Made by a program: the position numbers and the translations under genes. Below, one piece after another: positions 23,426 through 63,845 of a stretch of DNA of 64,000 nucleotides (its first letter is position 1; the number at the start of each line of letters is the position of its first letter). The notes beneath the pieces were generated by a model, which saw only the letters and a list, made by a program, of their open reading frames with translations, searched no databases and was not told where the DNA came from. The stretch is from Chloroflexota bacterium (lineage in GTDB: Bacteria; Chloroflexota; Anaerolineae; JAAYEA01): the NCBI GenBank assembly GCA_019873665.1, contig JAIOAV010000001.1, positions 1 through 64,000 on the forward strand. Direction: 5' to 3'.

Positions 23426-25105
23426 CTAGCGGGATGCGGCGCGCTGGCTTAGTCCATAGATGTCGTCCAAGATACGCCGCGCGTCGTCGGCTGATGGCAG
23501 GGCCGGCCTGCCATAACCCACGATCACCATCGGTGTCAGCTCGATCTGGCGCACGCCGCGCCGGTCCAGCCGCAGCATCGCGATGGCGGTGTCGGTGCTC
23601 AACTCTTGATCAAAGACGAAATTCCCCGTGCTATAGAGGATTACGCCCTCGCCATAGAATTCGATCGGCTGCCACGTGTGCGAATGATGCCCCAGCACTA
23701 ACGATGCCCCCGCATCTATCGCGGCACGCGCCGCCGCGCGCTGGAATTCACTGGGATTGTACAGATATTCGTACCCCGCATGGAGCGCGACGATCACCTG
23801 GTCTACCTCGCGCCTGGCTGCGGCTACCGCGGCGGAAATCGTCTCGATCTCTGCCCAGGCGATTCCCGGCTGATCGGCCGTGGCGACAAACTCGGTCCCC
23901 TGAAAAGTGCCAATGCTTTCAGGCGGATAGCGCGCAAAGGCGAGGAACGCCAGGCGCACTCCCTTGACGCTCATTACCACGGGTGCTAGCGCCTCCTGCT
24001 CGTTCCGGCCCGCGCCAATGCCGCGAATTCCCATCATCTCCAGCAGGCGCAGCGTGTCGTAAAAGGCGATCGGGCCATAGTCCAGAATATGATTATTCGC
24101 CAGGGTCACCAGATTCAGCCCCGCGCGACGCAACGCCAGGGCCGTCTCTGGTGGGGCGCGGAACACAAAGTATTTGTCCGCCGGCTCGCCGCGCGTCGAA
24201 ATGACGCACTCTAGGTTCCCTATGGCAATATCCGCTGCCTGCAGGATCGGCGCGGCATCTGCGAAGGGATAGGATGCGCCAAAGCGCCGCACCGAATCCG
24301 CCACGTCGCGCGCCAGCATGATGTCGCCTACAGCGGCGATGGTGATCTCCTCCACCGGCAGCGGCTGCTCGGCACGCAGGAAGGCGGCCAGCGTCGCGGC
24401 GACCTCTGAGTTGCCGACGTCGGGTGTCGCCAGTACCGCATGCGCGTAACGTAATGGATAGGCGCTTTCGGTGGGATGGCATCCCTCCACGCGCAGCGCT
24501 CGCACCCACGGCCGTACAGCTTCGTAGGGCAACAACGCCAGTTGCGCGCCGGAGTGCGCTCCCGTCAGCCAGGCCGCCATCAACGGCCATTCTTGTATCG
24601 CCGGCTCTGACAGTCCCAACAACCGCCGCGGTAATGGGTCGAAGGTAACGACCTGCGTGATCCCCAGCGCGGCGCGCGTCGCCGCGTCTCCTTGCAGCAA
24701 CGCCCGCAGCGCCGCCAGCGAGATCGCCTCCAGTGGTACGGAGAAGGGCACCACCGCCGCCAGCGACTCCTGCCGATAGGGGAAGGCCTCCACGCCCGCC
24801 AGCGGAAAGACGCCCCTGTAGAGCGCCAGATCGGCGCTCCCCGCCTGCAGCGCCGCCAGCGCCGCCGTGTCATCCGATACAGGGACGATCTCGCATGGCC
24901 AGTCGGGATACGACCGCGCAAAGCGCGACAGCGCCGCGGTTATCTCTGCGCCGGCAGGCACCGCCAGCCGCCAGGTGTGCGGCCCCGGTGCGCTGGCAGC
25001 GGGCGATGCGTGGCCGAAAAACAGCGCCCAGATCAGGAGTGTGGCCGCCATCGGCCCGCACCACCATCTGAGGCCGCACACGCCCGCGTGACGAGTTGCT
25101 CTCAA
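23426..25105 (-). CDS. Exported fusion of a solute-binding-like domain with a CapA-type metallophosphatase-like domain
   Basis: About 559 residues. The TTG at 25105 has GGGAGAGA seven bases upstream and yields a good signal peptide ending near SPAASA; ATG 25051 is an alternative. Residues about 40-290 look like a type-2 periplasmic binding domain of the phosphate/molybdate kind (LAVPAGAEITAALSRFA, GSADLALYRG). From about 300 the protein is CapA/PgsA-like: AVGDIMLARDV, IGNLECVIST, LANNHILDYG, VVALHAGYEY, LGHHSHTWQP and YSTGNFVFDQ. These motifs carry the expected Asp, Asn and His metal ligands of the calcineurin-like fold. CapA proteins take part in polyglutamate capsule synthesis, and many homologues have unknown roles. 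It probably acts outside the membrane. The fusion partner suggests ligand sensing or capture. Confidence 0.78.
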   Translation of the reverse strand: MRATRHAGVCGLRWWCGPMAATLLIWALFFGHASPAASAPGPHTWRLAVPAGAEITAALSRFARSYPDWPCEIVPVSDDTAALAALQAGSADLALYRGVFPLAGVEAFPYRQESLAAVVPFSVPLEAISLAALRALLQGDAATRAALGITQVVTFDPLPRRLLGLSEPAIQEWPLMAAWLTGAHSGAQLALLPYEAVRPWVRALRVEGCHPTESAYPLRYAHAVLATPDVGNSEVAATLAAFLRAEQPLPVEEITIAAVGDIMLARDVADSVRRFGASYPFADAAPILQAADIAIGNLECVISTRGEPADKYFVFRAPPETALALRRAGLNLVTLANNHILDYGPIAFYDTLRLLEMMGIRGIGAGRNEQEALAPVVMSVKGVRLAFLAFARYPPESIGTFQGTEFVATADQPGIAWAEIETISAAVAAARREVDQVIVALHAGYEYLYNPSEFQRAAARAAIDAGASLVLGHHSHTWQPIEFYGEGVILYSTGNFVFDQELSTDTAIAMLRLDRRGVRQIELTPMVIVGYGRPALPSADDARRILDDIYGLSQRAASR

Positions 25106-57460: not shown

Positions 57461-57489
57461 TTGTCTTTCTCGTCAGGGGTGTGTATAAT
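57461..57489 (+). promoter_or_regulatory. Promoter for comEA
   Basis: TTGTCT (57461-57466), a 17-base spacer and a perfect TATAAT (57484-57489), about 30 bases before the comEA ATG. Confidence 0.7.
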
Positions 57490-57518
57490 TGGGGCAAGAG
57501 CGGCGCAGGAGGCACGGC

Positions 57519-58100
57519 ATGTCCGAGTGGCTGGAACGCTATCGCGGCTACATCTTGCTACAGATCGTAAACGTCGCCCTGGTCGGTGTGCTGTGGTTTT
57601 GCTTGCGCCGCCCGGCGCCTGTGGTGATGATGGTGCAGACGCCTGTGCCCACGCCGATGACGCCCACTCCGGCTATGGTGCGCGTCTATGTGTGCGGCGC
57701 GGTTGCCCGGCCCGATGTCTATTCCGTGCCGCGTGATGCCATCGTGAAGGACGCGCTGCTCGCCGCGGGGGGGACCACTGCAGCGGCAGACCTGACGCGC
57801 ATCAATCTGGCGCTGCCGGTGCAGGATGGCGACCAGATCTACGTGCCGGCAGCGGGAGATGAGACGGCCGGCGCATCAGTTGCGTCGCCAACGCGGGCCG
57901 CTGGCAGCAAGATCAATATCAACAAGGCGAGTTACGAAGAACTGCTGACGCTGCCAGGAATTGGGGAGACGTACGCGCGGCGCATCATCGAGTATCGCAA
58001 GAAGAATGGCCCTTTTGCTCGCGTAGAGGACCTGCAAAATGTGGAGGGGATCGGCGCCGCCACGGTGGAGCGGCTTCGCAGCTTGATCACGCTGCAGTAG
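57519..58100 (+). CDS. comEA: ComEA-like DNA-binding protein
   Basis: A 193-residue membrane-anchored protein for DNA uptake in natural transformation. ATG 57519 follows AGGAGG. One transmembrane helix (about 12-30), a Pro/Thr stretch, an SLBB-type domain (about 50-115; VYVCGAVARPDVYSVP) and a C-terminal helix-hairpin-helix pair (about 130-193; INKASYEELLTLPGIGETYA and VEGIGAATVERLRS). This is the ComEA arrangement, in which the tail binds double-stranded DNA outside the membrane. Confidence 0.9.
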   Translation: MSEWLERYRGYILLQIVNVALVGVLWFCLRRPAPVVMMVQTPVPTPMTPTPAMVRVYVCGAVARPDVYSVPRDAIVKDALLAAGGTTAAADLTRINLALPVQDGDQIYVPAAGDETAGASVASPTRAAGSKININKASYEELLTLPGIGETYARRIIEYRKKNGPFARVEDLQNVEGIGAATVERLRSLITLQ

Positions 58101-58458: not shown

Positions 58459-58487
58459 TTGACATCATCCTGCTCTTGTGCTATACT
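58459..58487 (+). promoter_or_regulatory. Promoter of the lysW operon
   Basis: A perfect TTGACA (58459-58464), a 17-base spacer and TATACT (58482-58487). It is the strongest promoter match in the window. The transcript would begin near 58495, just before the Arg/Lys leader peptide. Confidence 0.8.
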
Positions 58488-58518
58488 TGCCTTGATTTGA
58501 TCGTTACGGAGTCATCAA

Positions 58519-58602
58519 ATGGCGTGTTCTCTCGTCAACCTGATCGTGCGACGACGAAAGCCGGCTCTTGTCCTGGAGGGGCTTGACTTCGCCGCTGATT
58601 AG
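58519..58602 (+). CDS. Candidate Arg/Lys-rich leader peptide of the lysW operon
   Basis: A 27-codon frame from ATG 58519 to TAG 58600-58602, with CGGAG eight bases ahead. Codons 11-14 are CGA CGA CGA AAG (Arg-Arg-Arg-Lys, 58549-58560), preceded by MACSLVNLIV and followed by PALVLEGLDFAAD. CGA is a rare-type Arg codon in GC-rich genomes, which would sharpen stalling. It lies between a consensus promoter and a GCCGGC terminator-like structure before lysW. Expression is inferred from position and codon content. Confidence 0.6.
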   Translation: MACSLVNLIVRRRKPALVLEGLDFAAD

Positions 58603-58675
58603 GCGCGCCATGATAGTGCTTTTGTGATATCAGCCGGCCTCTCTGGACTCGATATGAGACAGCGAGCCGGCTTTT
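58557..58675 (+). promoter_or_regulatory. Candidate transcription attenuator of the lysW operon
   Basis: Three segments share GCCGGC. Segment 1 AAAGCCGGCTC (58557-58667 minus 100, that is 58557-58567) overlaps the last Arg and Lys codons. Segment 2 AGCCGGCCTC is at 58632-58641. Segment 3 GAGCCGGCTTT is at 58664-58674 and runs into TTTTCATTT. Segments 1 and 3 are perfect 11-base complements; 2 can pair with 1 or with 3 over seven bases. Pair 2:3 with the U-rich tail resembles a terminator. Mutually exclusive pairing next to Arg codons indicates attenuation, but the sign of the response cannot be decided by eye. Confidence 0.6.
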
Positions 58676-58702
58676 CATTTGTTTGTATGAGGAGGAAACA
58701 AG

Positions 58703-58867
58703 ATGGCAGAGTGTCCAGAGTGTGCTGCCGAGATCCAGCTCAGCGATGACGTTGAGGAAGGGGAGATCATCATCTGTGCCGAATGTGGCGTCGAGCTGGA
58801 GGTTGTCTCGCTCGATCCGGTTGTGCTGGAGATGGCGCCCGAGGAAGCGGAGGACTGGGGCGAGTAG
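58703..58867 (+). CDS. lysW: Amino-group carrier protein LysW
   Basis: A 54-residue acidic zinc protein. Cys4, Cys7, Cys25 and Cys28 form two CxxC knuckles (MAECPEC and CAEC). It ends in EDWGE, whose terminal Glu side chain is joined to the amino group of alpha-aminoadipate or glutamate. The carrier protects that amine and presents intermediates to the following enzymes by its acidic surface. GAGGAGG precedes the ATG. It is the first structural gene of the operon, before lysX. Confidence 0.97.
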
Positions 58868-58882: not shown

Positions 58883-59731
58883 ATGAAAATCGCGGTTCTC
58901 CTCTCGCGCCTGCGCGTGGAGGAAAAGATGATCTTTCAGGCGCTGCGTGAGCGCGGGGTGGACTTTCAACGCATTGACGATGAGGCGCTGGCATTCGCGG
59001 CGACGAGCGGCGGCTGGGCCGATTCGTATGACGTGGTCTGGTGCCGCTCGCTCAGCCACACGCGCGCGCTGTACGCCCTCAGCATCCTCAATGGCTGGGG
59101 CGTCAAGACCGTCAACACGTACGACGTGATCAACACCTGTGGGGACAAGATCCTCACCACCATGGCGTTGACCAGGGCGGGCATCCCCTCGCCGCGGACC
59201 GTCGTGGCGCTTGGCCCTGACGCGGCACTGGCAAGTATGGAGCAGATGGGATATCCGGTGGTGCTCAAGCCGGCGGTTGGCTCATGGGGGCGTTTGCTCG
59301 CGCGCGTGAACGACCGGGATGCTGCCGAGGCGTTGATCGAGCACAAGCAGACGCTGGGCGGGTATCAGCATTCGGTCTTTTACATTCAGGAGTACATTGA
59401 CAAGCCGCAACGCGACATCCGCGCCATAGTCGTGGGTGACGAGACGATCTGCGCCATCTATCGCCAATCGCCGCATTGGATCACCAACACGGCGCGTGGC
59501 GGCGAGGCGGTTCTCTGTTCCCTGACGTCCGAGCTGAGCGAGCTTGCCGTGCGTGCGGCACAGGCCGTGGGCGGCGGCATCGTGGCTGTGGACATCCTGG
59601 AGGCGCCGGACGGGCGGCTGTTGGTCAATGAGGTCAATCACACGCCCGAGTTCCACGGCGCGATCACCGTGGCGCAGACCGACATCCCCGGCAAGATGAC
59701 AGATTACGTCTTGCGTGTGGCGGCATCCTGA
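58883..59731 (+). CDS. lysX: LysW ligase (LysX/ArgX), ATP-grasp family
   Basis: A 282-residue RimK-like ATP-grasp enzyme that joins an amino acid to the C-terminal Glu of LysW. ATP-binding parts include [33 protein letters not shown] and [13 protein letters not shown] with metal-binding Glu and Asn. The substrate-side segment reads [10 protein letters not shown]; the NTA motif (202-204) is, as I recall the literature, linked to alpha-aminoadipate recognition, whereas glutamate-specific ArgX enzymes differ there. Specificity therefore leans to lysine synthesis or dual use. It follows lysW by 15 bases. Confidence 0.92.
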
Positions 59732-59781: not shown

Positions 59782-60813
59782 ATGCAAGTGGCCATTGCCG
59801 GAGCTTCCGGCTATGCGGGAGGCGAGTTACTGCGCCTTCTGCTGTCTCATCCGCAGGTAACGGTGGCCGCGGCCACCTCGGAGCGTTCGTTCGGCCAGCC
59901 GGTCCACATGCTGCATCCGAACCTGCGTGGGCGCACCGATTTACAATTCATCCGTTTGCAGGACCTGCCCAAGGTAGATGTCCTTTTTGTGGCCTTCCCG
60001 CATGGCCAGGTGGCACCGCGCATCGAGCAATTTGCCAGCGTGGCGGAGCGCATCGTTGATCTGAGTGCAGACTTTCGCTTGCGCAGAGCGTCGGACTATA
60101 CCAGGTGGTACGAGTGGGAGCATCCCGCGCCGGTGTGGCTTAACAAGTTTGTCTATGGCTTGCCGGAGCTTCATCGCGAGGAGCTGCGCGACGCCAGATA
60201 CGCCAGCGGCGTCGGCTGTAATGCTACAGTGCTTAACCTCGCCCTGTGGCCGCTTTACCGCGCCAAGCTTGTGGAGATGACGGTGAGCGAGGTCAAGGTG
60301 GGCTCTTCCGAGGGCGGCAATGAGGCAACTCCTGCCTCGCACCATCCGGAGCGCTCCCATGTGGTCCGTTCCTACGCGCCGACCACGCATCGGCATCTCG
60401 CCGAGCTGGAGCAGGAGCTGGGTTTTGGCGACAAGCCCAACATCCATCTGTCCCTGACCTCTGTCGAGCTGGTGCGCGGCGCGCTGGGCACGTCCCACTG
60501 TTTCTTGCGGCAGAACCTGCAAGAGCGCGACATCTGGAAGCTGTATCGGGAGGCATACGCCAACGAGCCGTTCATCCGCATCGTCAAGGTGCGACGCGGC
60601 ATCTATCGCTACCCTGAGCCCAAGATACTGGCCGGCTCCAACTACTGCGACATCGGCTTTGAGCTGGAGGAGGGAAGCAACCGGCTGGTGGTGATCTCGG
60701 CGCTGGACAACCTGATGAAAGGCGCAGCGGGGACAGCGGTGCAGGCGATGAACGTCATGTGCGGTTTCCCGGAAACGATGGGGCTGGATTTCCCCGGCCT
60801 ACATCCGATTTAG
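59782..60813 (+). CDS. lysY: LysW-gamma-phosphate reductase (LysY/ArgC)
   Basis: A 343-residue NADPH-dependent reductase of the ArgC fold acting on the phosphorylated LysW-bound intermediate. The NADP motif is VAIAGASGYAGGELLRLL and the catalytic Cys is Cys146 in SGVGCNATV. The SSEGGNEATPASHHPERSH segment is like the LysY branch that accepts carrier-bound substrates. The ATG at 59782 follows GGAGGG. ArgC activity in arginine synthesis is expected from the same protein if the pathway is shared. Confidence 0.92.
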   Translation: MQVAIAGASGYAGGELLRLLLSHPQVTVAAATSERSFGQPVHMLHPNLRGRTDLQFIRLQDLPKVDVLFVAFPHGQVAPRIEQFASVAERIVDLSADFRLRRASDYTRWYEWEHPAPVWLNKFVYGLPELHREELRDARYASGVGCNATVLNLALWPLYRAKLVEMTVSEVKVGSSEGGNEATPASHHPERSHVVRSYAPTTHRHLAELEQELGFGDKPNIHLSLTSVELVRGALGTSHCFLRQNLQERDIWKLYREAYANEPFIRIVKVRRGIYRYPEPKILAGSNYCDIGFELEEGSNRLVVISALDNLMKGAAGTAVQAMNVMCGFPETMGLDFPGLHPI

Positions 60814-60830: not shown

Positions 60831-61634
60831 ATGATCGTTGTCAAGGTGGGCGGAGGCGAAGGGATCGGCTTTGGCGCGCTGACGGAGGATGTGGCTGCGT
60901 TGGCCCAGCAGGGGAGCCAGTTGGTGCTGGTGCACGGTGGCTCGCATGAGACGAACGTAATCTCAACGGCGTTGGGCAAGCCGCCGCACTTTGTTACCTC
61001 CGTTTCCGGCTATGAGAGCCGCTTTACGGATCGCGAGACGCTGGAGATCTTTGCCATGGTGGTGGCGGGCAAGGTGAACAAGCTGCTGGTGGAGCAGTTG
61101 CAGCAAAAGGGCGTGAACGCGGTGGGCCTCTCCGGTGCGGATGGCCGTCTTCTGGAGGGCAAGCGCAAGGAGGTGCTCAAGATCGTGGAGGATGGCAAGC
61201 GTAAGGTGCTGCGCGGCGACTGGAGCGGTATGCCGGAGCGCGTGAACACTGGCCTGATCACGCTGCTTTTGCAGAACGGCTATTCGCCGGTGATCGCGCC
61301 GCTGGCCATCAGCGACGCGGGCGAGCTGCTGAATGTGGACGCTGATCGCGTGGCAGCGATGGTGGCGACGGCGCTGCGCGCCGACACGCTCATCTTGCTC
61401 TCTAACGTCCCCGGGCTTTTGGCCAAGTTCCCCGATCCGAACTCGCTTGTCCGCCAGTTGCCGCGCAACCGACTGGAGGATGGGCTGCAGGCGGCGCAAG
61501 GGCGGATGAAAAAGAAGATCCTGGGCGCCAGCGAGGCGTTGGATGGCGGCGTAGGTAAGGTGATCATCGCGGATGCCCGCGTCGCGTCGCCCATCAGCAA
61601 GGCTCTGGCTGGAGAGGGCACGGTGATCCAGTGA
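60831..61634 (+). CDS. lysZ: LysW-bound amino acid kinase (LysZ/ArgB)
   Basis: A 267-residue amino-acid kinase that phosphorylates the side-chain carboxylate of LysW-aminoadipate or LysW-glutamate. ATG 60831 gives the usual MIVVKVGGGEGIGF start. Other features are LVHGGSHETNVIS, AVGLSGADGRLLEGKRKE, VIAPLAISDAGELLNVDADR and the C-terminal MKKKILGASEAL. It lies 17 bases after lysY and overlaps lysJ by four bases (GTGA). Confidence 0.93.
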   Translation: MIVVKVGGGEGIGFGALTEDVAALAQQGSQLVLVHGGSHETNVISTALGKPPHFVTSVSGYESRFTDRETLEIFAMVVAGKVNKLLVEQLQQKGVNAVGLSGADGRLLEGKRKEVLKIVEDGKRKVLRGDWSGMPERVNTGLITLLLQNGYSPVIAPLAISDAGELLNVDADRVAAMVATALRADTLILLSNVPGLLAKFPDPNSLVRQLPRNRLEDGLQAAQGRMKKKILGASEALDGGVGKVIIADARVASPISKALAGEGTVIQ

Positions 61635-62812
61635 GCCAGATGCCGCATTCCAACCAAGAGATCGTCGAGCTGGAGAACCGTTATACCAGCGGCCTCTATA
61701 ACAAGCGGCCCATCGCGCTAGTGCGCGGTGAGGGCGCACACGTATGGGACGCCGATGGCCGCGAGTACATTGACTGCGTGGGCGGCCATGGCGTCGTCAA
61801 CGTCGGGCACTGCAATCCAGACGTGGTGCAGGCGATCTGCGAGCAGGCCAAGACGATGATCACCTGTCCGCCGAGCTTTCCCAACGACAAGCGCGCTCTG
61901 CTGATGGCAGAGCTGATCCGCATCGCGCCCTTCCCGGCGGAGCGCGTCTTCCTGTGCAATTCCGGCACCGAGGCGGTGGAAGCTGCCCTCAAGTTCGCGC
62001 GGCTGGTGACGGGGCGCAAGGGGATCATCGCCACGAAGAACGCCTTTCATGGCCGAACCTTTGGCGCGCTCTCCGCTACATGGAACGTCGAATACCGCCG
62101 CCCCTTTGAGCCGCTGGTGCCGGGGTTTTTGCATGTTACCTACGGCGATACGACGGCGCTTGCCGAAGCCATAACCGACGACACCGCTGCCGTCATTCTG
62201 GAGGTGGTGCAGGGTGAAGGCGGCGTTCGTCCCGGGGACGGGGCATACCTGCGGCAGGCGCAGGAGCTCTGCCGCGAACATGGCGCACTGCTGATCATAG
62301 ATGAGGTGCAGACCGGCTTTGGCCGCACGGGCCGCATGTTCGCGTCCGAGTACTATGGGCTGGAGCCTGACTTGATGTGTGTGGCCAAGTCCATCGCCGG
62401 CGGTGTGCCGATGGGCGCGGTGCTGATGGGCGCCCGCGTGGGCGAGCTGCAGAGCCAGACTCATGGCACAACTTTTGGTGGCAACCCGCTGGCGTGCGCG
62501 GCGGCGTTGGCAGCCATTCGCTACATCGAGACGCACCACCTGCCGCAGCGCGCGGCGGAGCTGGGCGCTTATTTCATGGACAAGCTGCGCGCGTTGGACC
62601 GGCCGCTGATCCGAGAGGTGCGCGGGTTGGGGCTAATGGTGGGCGTGGAGCTCAAGCAGCGCGCAGCCGGCTATCTGGCCAAGTTGATGGATGCTGGCGT
62701 GCTGGCGCTGCCCGCCGGCCCCATCGTGCTGCGCTTCCTGCCGCCGCTGGTCATCTCGCGGGAGGACCTTGACACGGTCGTAAAGGTGGTGGGGGATGTC
62801 CTCGCTCAGTAG
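61631..62812 (+). CDS. lysJ: LysW-aminoadipate semialdehyde / ornithine-type aminotransferase (LysJ/ArgD)
   Basis: A 393-residue class III PLP aminotransferase. The PLP Lys is Lys253 in [14 protein letters not shown], with Asp224 in [18 protein letters not shown]. It converts carrier-bound semialdehyde to LysW-lysine or LysW-ornithine. Translation begins at a GTG overlapping the lysZ stop. Its end overlaps lysK by 17 bases. Confidence 0.94.
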
Positions 62813-63845
62813 GCAAGATGAGGTAACGCTGCTGCGGGAGATGCTGGAGATCTACAGCCCTTCTGGCGAGGAGGAAGAGATCTCCAATTATCTCTATACC
62901 CGCTTTCGCGGCCTCGGCTTTCACACGTATCAGGACGGCGTGGGCAATGTGGTGGGCATGGCCGGCAGCGGCGACCAGGAGGTGATTCTGCTCGGCCACA
63001 TGGACACGGTGGGTGGGTTCCTGCCGGTCAAGGAGGCGCATGGCAGTCTGTACGGGCGAGGGGCGGTGGATGCCAAAGGCCCTCTGGCGGCGTTCGTGGC
63101 TGCCGCCGTGCGCGTCGCGCCGGTGATCAACAAGCGGGTTGTAGTGATCGGCGTCGTGGAAGAGGAGACATCGTCGCGGGGCGCGCGGGCGCTGCTGAGC
63201 AACTTTGCCCCAGACTATGTGGTGATCGGCGAGCCGAGCGGCTGGGAGCACATCACGCTGGGCTACAAGGGGCGCATTCTGGTGCGCTATCGCCTCTCAT
63301 CGCGTGTGCGGCACAGCTCGGCGGAGGGGCCTTCCGCCTCGGAGCGCGCAGTCGAGTTCTGGAATCGGCTCCGCGCCTATGCCGATGAGGTGAATGGCGG
63401 ACGGCGCTGGCACTTTGACACGCTCGATCCGTTCCTGCGGCGGCTGACTTCCAGTGACGGCGACTTTGCAGAAGAAGTGGTGATGGATATCACCATGCGC
63501 ACCCCGCTCGATCTGGATGTGGCGGCGCTGAAGGATCGGATGCGTTCCTGGGCCGGCGAGGCAGCTGTTGGCTTCAGCGGCGAGGATCAGGCCTTCAAAG
63601 CGGACAAGAACACGCCGCTGGTGCGCGCCTTCCTGAAAGCGATTCGCAGCCAGGGCGGCAAGCCGCTTTTCAAGCTCAAACTCGGCACTTCGGATATGAA
63701 CACTGTGGCGCCGGTGTGGCGCTGCCCCATCATCGCCTACGGCCCCGGCGATTCCACGCTGGATCACACGCCGGAAGAGGCGATCGAGCTGGAAGCGTAC
63801 GAGCGCGGCATCACCATCCTGGAGCAGGCTTTGCTGAACCTGTAG
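62796..63845 (+). CDS. lysK: LysW-lysine/ornithine hydrolase (LysK/ArgE type), M20 family
   Basis: A 349-residue metallopeptidase that releases lysine or ornithine from LysW. The metal and catalytic residues are His68 and Asp70 in LLGHMDTVGG, Asp92 in GRGAVDAKGPL, and Glu123/Glu124 in VVEEETSSRGA. The late GDSTLDHTPEE holds the last ligand His. The ATG lies inside the lysJ end. The gene ends 25 bases before a terminator, closing the operon. Confidence 0.94.
   Translation: MSSLSRQDEVTLLREMLEIYSPSGEEEEISNYLYTRFRGLGFHTYQDGVGNVVGMAGSGDQEVILLGHMDTVGGFLPVKEAHGSLYGRGAVDAKGPLAAFVAAAVRVAPVINKRVVVIGVVEEETSSRGARALLSNFAPDYVVIGEPSGWEHITLGYKGRILVRYRLSSRVRHSSAEGPSASERAVEFWNRLRAYADEVNGGRRWHFDTLDPFLRRLTSSDGDFAEEVVMDITMRTPLDLDVAALKDRMRSWAGEAAVGFSGEDQAFKADKNTPLVRAFLKAIRSQGGKPLFKLKLGTSDMNTVAPVWRCPIIAYGPGDSTLDHTPEEAIELEAYERGITILEQALLNL

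Follow-up and report, generated by a model that had tools for sequence, protein, structure and literature searches.

Predicted attenuation of a LysW operon by an arginine-codon leader in Chloroflexota

Telling which product a LysW operon serves, be it lysine, arginine or both, is a persistent difficulty in annotation, and the 64,000-nucleotide stretch of DNA from a Chloroflexota bacterium that was analysed here (the window) contains such an operon. The codons of a leader peptide provide evidence on the product that is independent of the enzymes, and at this locus the two lines of evidence are concordant. The initial annotation had described, upstream of lysW, a promoter, a leader ORF containing CGA CGA CGA AAG, three mutually complementary GCCGGC segments and a U-rich tail, followed directly by a complete LysW pathway. 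All of these elements were recovered (Table 1), with the lysW ATG at 58703 and lysX, Y, Z, J and K behind it. The operon sits between comEA (window 57489-58100) and comEC (L173 6948-9329, after lysK). The promoter (58459-58487) matches the consensus at 11 of 12 positions and has a TG before the -10 element, shuffling giving an expectation of 0.3 such sites per 1.2 kb, and a GGAG Shine-Dalgarno-like motif is located approximately 7 nt upstream of the leader ORF. A scan of both strands of the window for a triple-codon leader ORF together with a region 2 and a terminator revealed only one further site, on the minus strand at 24809, whose ORF is much longer. In our interpretation, the leader responds to the supply of charged tRNA-Arg and thereby regulates the arginine (ornithine) branch of the LysW pathway, acting as a ribosome-mediated transcription attenuator of the classical kind; we assign this reading a probability of about 0.88. 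The parts of the attenuator, their conservation in relatives, the match between codons and enzyme, and the predicted sign were obtained by computation, and from these we infer its operation in the cell.

Table 1. Positions in the window of the leader elements and of the LysW operon genes.
Feature	Position	Strand	Basis or remark
Promoter, sigma-70-type TTGACA-17-TATACT, extended -10 TGTGCTATACT	58459..58487	+	Motif scan; kept in L008
Shine-Dalgarno-like CGGAG of leader ORF	58507..58511	+	Sequence; inference
Leader peptide ORF, 84 bases, MACSLVNLIVRRRKPALVLEGLDFAAD	58519..58602	+	ORF and comparison with relatives; translation predicted
Region 1, 5' side of the 1:2 hairpin hiding region 2 without a stalled ribosome	58539..58562	+	Minimum-energy fold
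Control codons CGA CGA CGA (Arg)	58549..58557	+	Third CGA begins 14-15 nt before region 2
GCCGGC segment 1 AAAGCCGGCTC	58557..58567	+	Real, not conserved
AAG (Lys) codon, possible second control codon	58558..58560	+	Absent in L008
Region 2 GUCCUGGAGGGGCU, 5' side of antiterminator, just 3' of the CGA codons	58570..58583	+	Folding and comparison
GCCGGC segment 2 AGCCGGCC	from 58632	+	
Region 3 AGCCGGCCTCTCTGGAC, partner of region 2 (antiterminator) or region 4 (terminator)	58632..58648	+	
Region 4, 3' arm of intrinsic terminator	58664..58672	+	Folding and L008
GCCGGC segment 3 GAGCCGGCTTT	58664..58674	+	
U-rich terminator tail TTTTCATTTGTTTG	58671..58684 (start approximate)	+	Sequence
lysW, carrier protein ending EDWGE	58703..58867	+	
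lysX homologue, ArgX type	58883..59731	+	PEFHGA signature
lysY/argC homologue	59782..60813	+	
lysZ, [LysW]-aminoadipate/glutamate kinase	60831..61634	+	Only copy in genome assembly
lysJ/argD homologue	61631..62812	+	
lysK, [LysW]-lysine/ornithine hydrolase	62796..63845	+	

The leader RNA folds better than shuffled sequences (z -2.56), and the same holds for the duplex formed by region 2 (z -3.8). In the minimum-energy fold of the free RNA, regions 1 and 2 form a protector hairpin that spans 58539-58603 and includes the control codons. Regions 3 and 4 form a terminator hairpin (58632-58672; -21.5 kcal/mol by folding), which a simple terminator scan missed because its loop is long and exceeds the loop limit of the scan. 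The competing 2:3 pair joins GUCC(U)GGAGGGGCU at 58570-58583 with GGCCUCUCUGGAC at 58636-58648 through 13 pairs and one bulge. These alternatives were compared by masked folding, in which a ribosome was placed at a given codon and the RNA was taken as made up to 58650-58660. With the ribosomal A site at the third CGA (58555), the 2:3 pair had a P of 0.90-0.95 until arm 4 was made. The corresponding values were 0.61-0.66 with the ribosome at AAG, 0.5-0.8 at the second CGA, and 0.04-0.12 at the first CGA, where region 2 is hardly exposed. Without a ribosome, P was 0 for the 2:3 pair and 0.86 for the 3:4 terminator. Folding with ribosomes at the Arg codons or the stop had been suggested in the initial annotation, whose two-state model left the sign of the response unclear and which therefore guessed that a third structure or a trans factor might be involved. 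Region 2 supplies the missing structure and the sign is no longer unclear; in the masked-folding model it is that of a classical attenuator, a stall being predicted to yield the antiterminator and the free RNA the terminator. The antiterminator and the terminator are mutually exclusive in silico and stalling favours the former, an intrinsic terminator precedes the first gene, and the leader ORF has tandem codons for what appears to be the product of the operon, each of these being a mark of an attenuator. The full-length RNA at equilibrium favours the terminator even with a stalled ribosome, and the switch therefore needs a kinetic order in which the 2:3 pair forms first.

With arginine plentiful, the ribosome would pass the CGA codons, region 2 would be covered or folded onto region 1, and regions 3 and 4 would form the terminator, so that transcription would end before lysW. 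With charged tRNA-Arg in short supply, the ribosome would stall at CGA CGA CGA and cover region 1; region 2 would then pair with region 3, and RNA polymerase would read into lysW-argX-lysY-lysZ-lysJ-lysK. Only one copy of lysZ is present, which thus probably also serves a separate lysine operon; for this reason, the AAG beside the CGA triplet may bring in control by lysine as well.

The switch proposed in the initial annotation was a different one, in which the GCCGGC segments 1, 2 and 3 (58557, 58632 and 58664) compete and a perfect pair of segments 1 and 3 is the alternative to the terminator. The complementarity of these two segments is real (11/11 bp), and the pair forms in silico with the ribosome on the stop codon (P 0.87-0.94). 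For this ribosome position the model gives the 1:2 or 1:4 pairs of the earlier proposal and not the 3:4 pair, as the stop is situated 17-30 nt beyond region 2, and termination would therefore depend on ribosome release and the 1:2 fold. However, a 1:3 pair would favour readthrough at plentiful arginine, which is the wrong sign, and the nearest relative lacks it. The comparison of the window's own leader was made with this one close relative, L008 (the same stretch as L005), from the only other genome of the family that was compared (G001) and with a LysX 75% identical to that of the window. Upstream of its lysW, L008 keeps the TTGACA...TGTGCTATACT promoter, a GTG-started leader ORF of 29 codons, MHSIACVAIRRSRSSSSSSPEEEIVSSCD, with CGA CGA TCC CGA, and the terminator AGCCGGCC-CTCTGGACT...GAGCCGGCT-ATTTT. 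No GCCGGC occurs in its leader ORF; segment 1 thus is not conserved in a relative that keeps all else. Instead, its leader has retained AGUCCGGAGG, which is complementary to CCUCUGGACU of the terminator arm, and the window shows this relation as well. The other leaders use a region 2 placed past the control codons, and a switch based on the 1:3 pair is quite improbable. Retention of the hairpin with loss of the leader codons, which had been named beforehand as an outcome speaking against attenuation, was not seen, since L008 keeps the hairpin and the Arg codons, though not AAG. What stands of the earlier proposal is attenuation through the leader codons, strongly supported by comparison for Arg and only perhaps extending to Lys, and what falls is the 1:3 pair as its switch.

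A total of 133 different stretches upstream of lysW was collected from genome contigs and by searching 396 genomes of the same class, and these were screened with a detector that is blind to codon content and relies on a terminator, a complementary region 2, and an ORF picked by its start codon and Shine-Dalgarno sequence. The screen yielded 41 strong candidate leaders, and leaders of this kind are found in relatives, mainly Chloroflexota, before approximately 35 lysW operons. Among the 12 codons before region 2 in the 41 leaders, Lys accounted for 17.8% in frame versus 2.0 and 1.6% in the two alternative frames. Clusters of Lys were present in frame in 21 of 41 leaders versus 1 and 1 in the other frames, and Arg clusters in 20 of 41 versus 13 and 5, the count of the +1 frame being inflated by AAG runs. 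The region-2 duplex was better than all 20 dinucleotide shuffles in 28 of the 41 leaders, and combining region 2 with region 3 of other leaders gave p <=0.05 in 8/41, this swap test being weak because many leaders share a TCTGGA:TCCAGA core. The control codons are located approximately 11-30 nt before region 2. For 34 curated leaders, the expected number of 2:3 pairs was 10.2 for a ribosome stalled at the last control codon, fell to 0.97 when it was placed on the stop, and was 5.2 in RNA free of ribosomes; pairing under stalling exceeded that at the stop in 31 of the 34, and the masked-folding simulation was flat for several leaders (L068, L070, L086 and L034). A 1:2 protector hairpin, CGAAACTCCC...GGGAGTTTCG, was found in one lineage, and regions 1 and 2 are invariant within the lineage with the RNSRRAR peptide. 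GC-rich leaders fold well by chance and some detector matches (L149, L012, L156 and L162) look fortuitous, as might be the case if the locus were only a GC-rich intergenic stretch with an accidental or leftover ORF and hairpins; however, independent lineages share this design, their codons and spacing being in agreement, and this explanation is hardly credible. Outside the Chloroflexota, two Planctomycetota stretches (L054 and L056) have Lys-rich leader ORFs (peptides ALKKLNGKEK and FKSSKLKVDRR), a terminator and a region 2 before lysW.

The choice among Arg codons is strongly biased in these leaders. CGA makes up 37 of the 69 control Arg codons (54%) versus 3.5% in genes of the same loci, an enrichment whose pooled p value (1e-29) is too small because several leaders are close relatives and the lineages thus are not independent; the excess is shown separately by the window pair, the RNSRRAR lineage and L154. 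In the window, all codons of the leader's Arg triplet are CGA (3/3), compared with 4.3% of the Arg codons in the operon genes. Such an excess fits sensing by decoding speed. It bears on the possibility that the attenuator is real and responds to its nascent peptide or to a ligand, such as arginine or ornithine on the ribosome in an SpeFL-type arrest, and not to tRNA-Arg charging. Consistent with arrest, one lineage shows good conservation of the RNSRRARxKRS core, and enterobacteria have a leader ORF linked to arginine (PMC6386406). Between lineages, however, the peptides differ widely and only codon identity is kept, the exchange of Lys for Arg follows the enzyme, and the preference for a rare codon points to decoding speed, which together make a peptide or ligand signal unlikely. 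Lysine riboswitches and T-boxes control amino-acid genes elsewhere. Chloroflexi do have T-boxes (PMC3766115), and a metabolite-binding RNA, a T-box or a regulator protein (e.g., ArgR) might in principle act on the leader, with the ORF being incidental. A search for Rfam leader families, T-boxes and the lysine riboswitch found nothing in the window that reached the gathering score, and in the leader a threshold of E up to 10 brought up chance matches only. Control of this type would leave the codon excess and the position of region 2 unexplained and is very unlikely.

The reading as a tRNA-Arg attenuator agrees with the type of the LysX homologue. ArgX has a Gly where LysX has an Asn (PMC10433800), and in an alignment to solved structures the window enzyme has the signature PEFHGA, like Sulfolobus ArgX (StArgX; PEFKGF) and unlike Thermus LysX (TtLysX; MEFKNS). 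This signature, at residues 258-260, marks the enzyme as a putative glutamate-type ArgX; an NTARGG motif near residue 204 was considered as an alternative signature and discarded, being identical in both types. In a tree of 166 LysX proteins, the window enzyme falls within an ArgX clade of 28 rows (96% support). This clade contains an enzyme of every curated Arg-leader operon as well as lysX genes adjoining argH (L010, L015 and L077), whereas the enzymes of all 21 Lys-leader operons lie outside of it, and for operons with a single lysX one change of leader type is needed on the tree. When an automatic rule was applied, a Gly-type ArgX was encoded behind 15 of 18 Arg leaders, the three exceptions being weak detections, and solely an Asn-type LysX behind 19 of 19 Lys leaders (leader versus signature, p 9e-8), a match that comprises few independent events, namely one deep split in the LysX tree and about six genomes with both types. 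Many Arg-leader operons carry LysX and ArgX in tandem and have leaders with both Arg and Lys codons (RRARAKRS). A third signature, with HT instead of RN (LysX) or HG (ArgX), was observed at 19 loci that form one group (e.g., L023, L032, L113 and L142), mostly without a detected leader at lysW.

Another contig of the window's genome (assembly 91.5% complete, 6% contamination) carries a lysine operon whose products we take, from recognition of the sequences and with the equivalents in G330 and G173 examined, to be homocitrate synthase, homoaconitase, homoisocitrate dehydrogenase, LysW, LysX and LysK. It lies behind its own attenuator with the leader peptide ...QQGKKPRR. ArgJ was absent in 10 of 10 genomes checked and lysZ was single-copy in all 10; therefore, arginine most likely is made through the LysW pathway, and the lysZ of the window probably is common to the pathway of the separate lysine operon. 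The upstream regions of homocitrate synthase (9 copies in 8 genomes) were searched afterwards as a check. Lys-codon leaders were found before 7 of the 9 copies, one of them weak (G000 on two contigs, G001, G302 (weak), G330, G173 and G186), with GKKP in those of both G000 and G001. The leader in G044 is mixed (QKPRPKQ), and no Lys leader was found upstream of homocitrate synthase in G364. In G000, G001, G173, G186 and G330, the ArgX operon has an Arg leader and the lysine operon a Lys leader; G364 likewise carries both types, with the Lys leader on lysW-lysX-lysK. In this group, arginine operons thus have leaders with arginine codons and lysine operons have leaders with lysine codons, so that the leader indicates the product of the operon. 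As an even bet, the LysW pathway of the Chloroflexota would be run by a matched pair of attenuators, with Arg leaders on operons of ArgX and the shared enzymes (lysY, Z and J) and Lys leaders, sometimes two in tandem, on operons for aminoadipate synthesis and LysX. Mixed leaders (RRRK, RRARAKR) would read both amino acids since the shared enzymes serve both products, and the codons would thus report the substrate of LysX or ArgX, enzymes that otherwise look alike. Such an arrangement would give each product a sensor of its own, forming a natural pair in a pathway with shared enzymes.

The design resembles the proteobacterial attenuators (trp, his, leu, thr, ilv and phe) in its leader peptide with tandem codons for the product, its 1:2, 2:3 and 3:4 alternatives and its U-rich intrinsic terminator, but differs in using Arg or Lys control codons, in its occurrence in Chloroflexota and in acting on LysW operons. 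The lysine cluster of Thermus thermophilus reportedly is attenuated by a leader peptide with lysine codons (said to be the work of Tsubouchi and others, J Biol Chem 2005). This too would be attenuation of LysW-pathway genes, compared here by description only, and the window operon differs from it in being of arginine type and in using CGA codons. The view of the initial annotation that attenuation of a LysW operon had not been described hence needs qualification, while the specificity for Arg looks new. To our knowledge, no Arg-codon attenuation of a biosynthetic operon has been described, and we know of attenuators outside the Proteobacteria and a few Gram-positive lineages only as a poorly charted group. 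The mechanism itself thus is already known; what looks new is its specificity for Arg, its occurrence in this lineage and the pairing of Arg with Lys leaders. A survey from 2013 names only His, Leu, Thr, Trp, Ile/Val and Phe attenuators (PMC3766115). Two consecutive Arg codons sense arginine in the orf34/SpeFL leader ORF of speF in Salmonella and E. coli (PMC6386406), but this leader controls ornithine decarboxylase via Rho, RNase G and the ribosome-binding site and not via an intrinsic terminator. For carAB of Pseudomonas aeruginosa, an arginine/pyrimidine gene, PMC4997734 cites work on a leader peptide that possibly acts by attenuation; likened here by description only, this leader differs from that of the window in being attributed to pyrimidine control.

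Several further features were observed upstream of homocitrate synthase. In G364 (L188), this region contains a tandem array of the short repeat GGATGGCGATCCGCTTCGAGCCTGG. A promoter-proximal terminator precedes the Lys attenuator on the minus strand, 250-340 nt before homocitrate synthase (L183/L007, G000 contig 32; also L185), and is present in both genomes of the family. In G000 the 5' part of this terminator, GCTAGCTCAGGGTAGAGC, resembles the D-arm of a tRNA; ARAGORN finds no tRNA in the leader on contig 32, and this candidate was rejected. The two homocitrate synthase copies on G000 contigs 32 and 177 (L184 and L192) are 94% identical and have near-identical leaders, possibly because the assembly mixes strains. 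The homocitrate synthase genes of G330 and G173 are each preceded by two Lys-codon attenuators in tandem (L178 8760-9146 and L189), each with its own leader ORF and terminator, and the leader peptides are ..KKPDR and ..KKNKCSKPD, and MKKPDR and DKKCKRFMPD, respectively.
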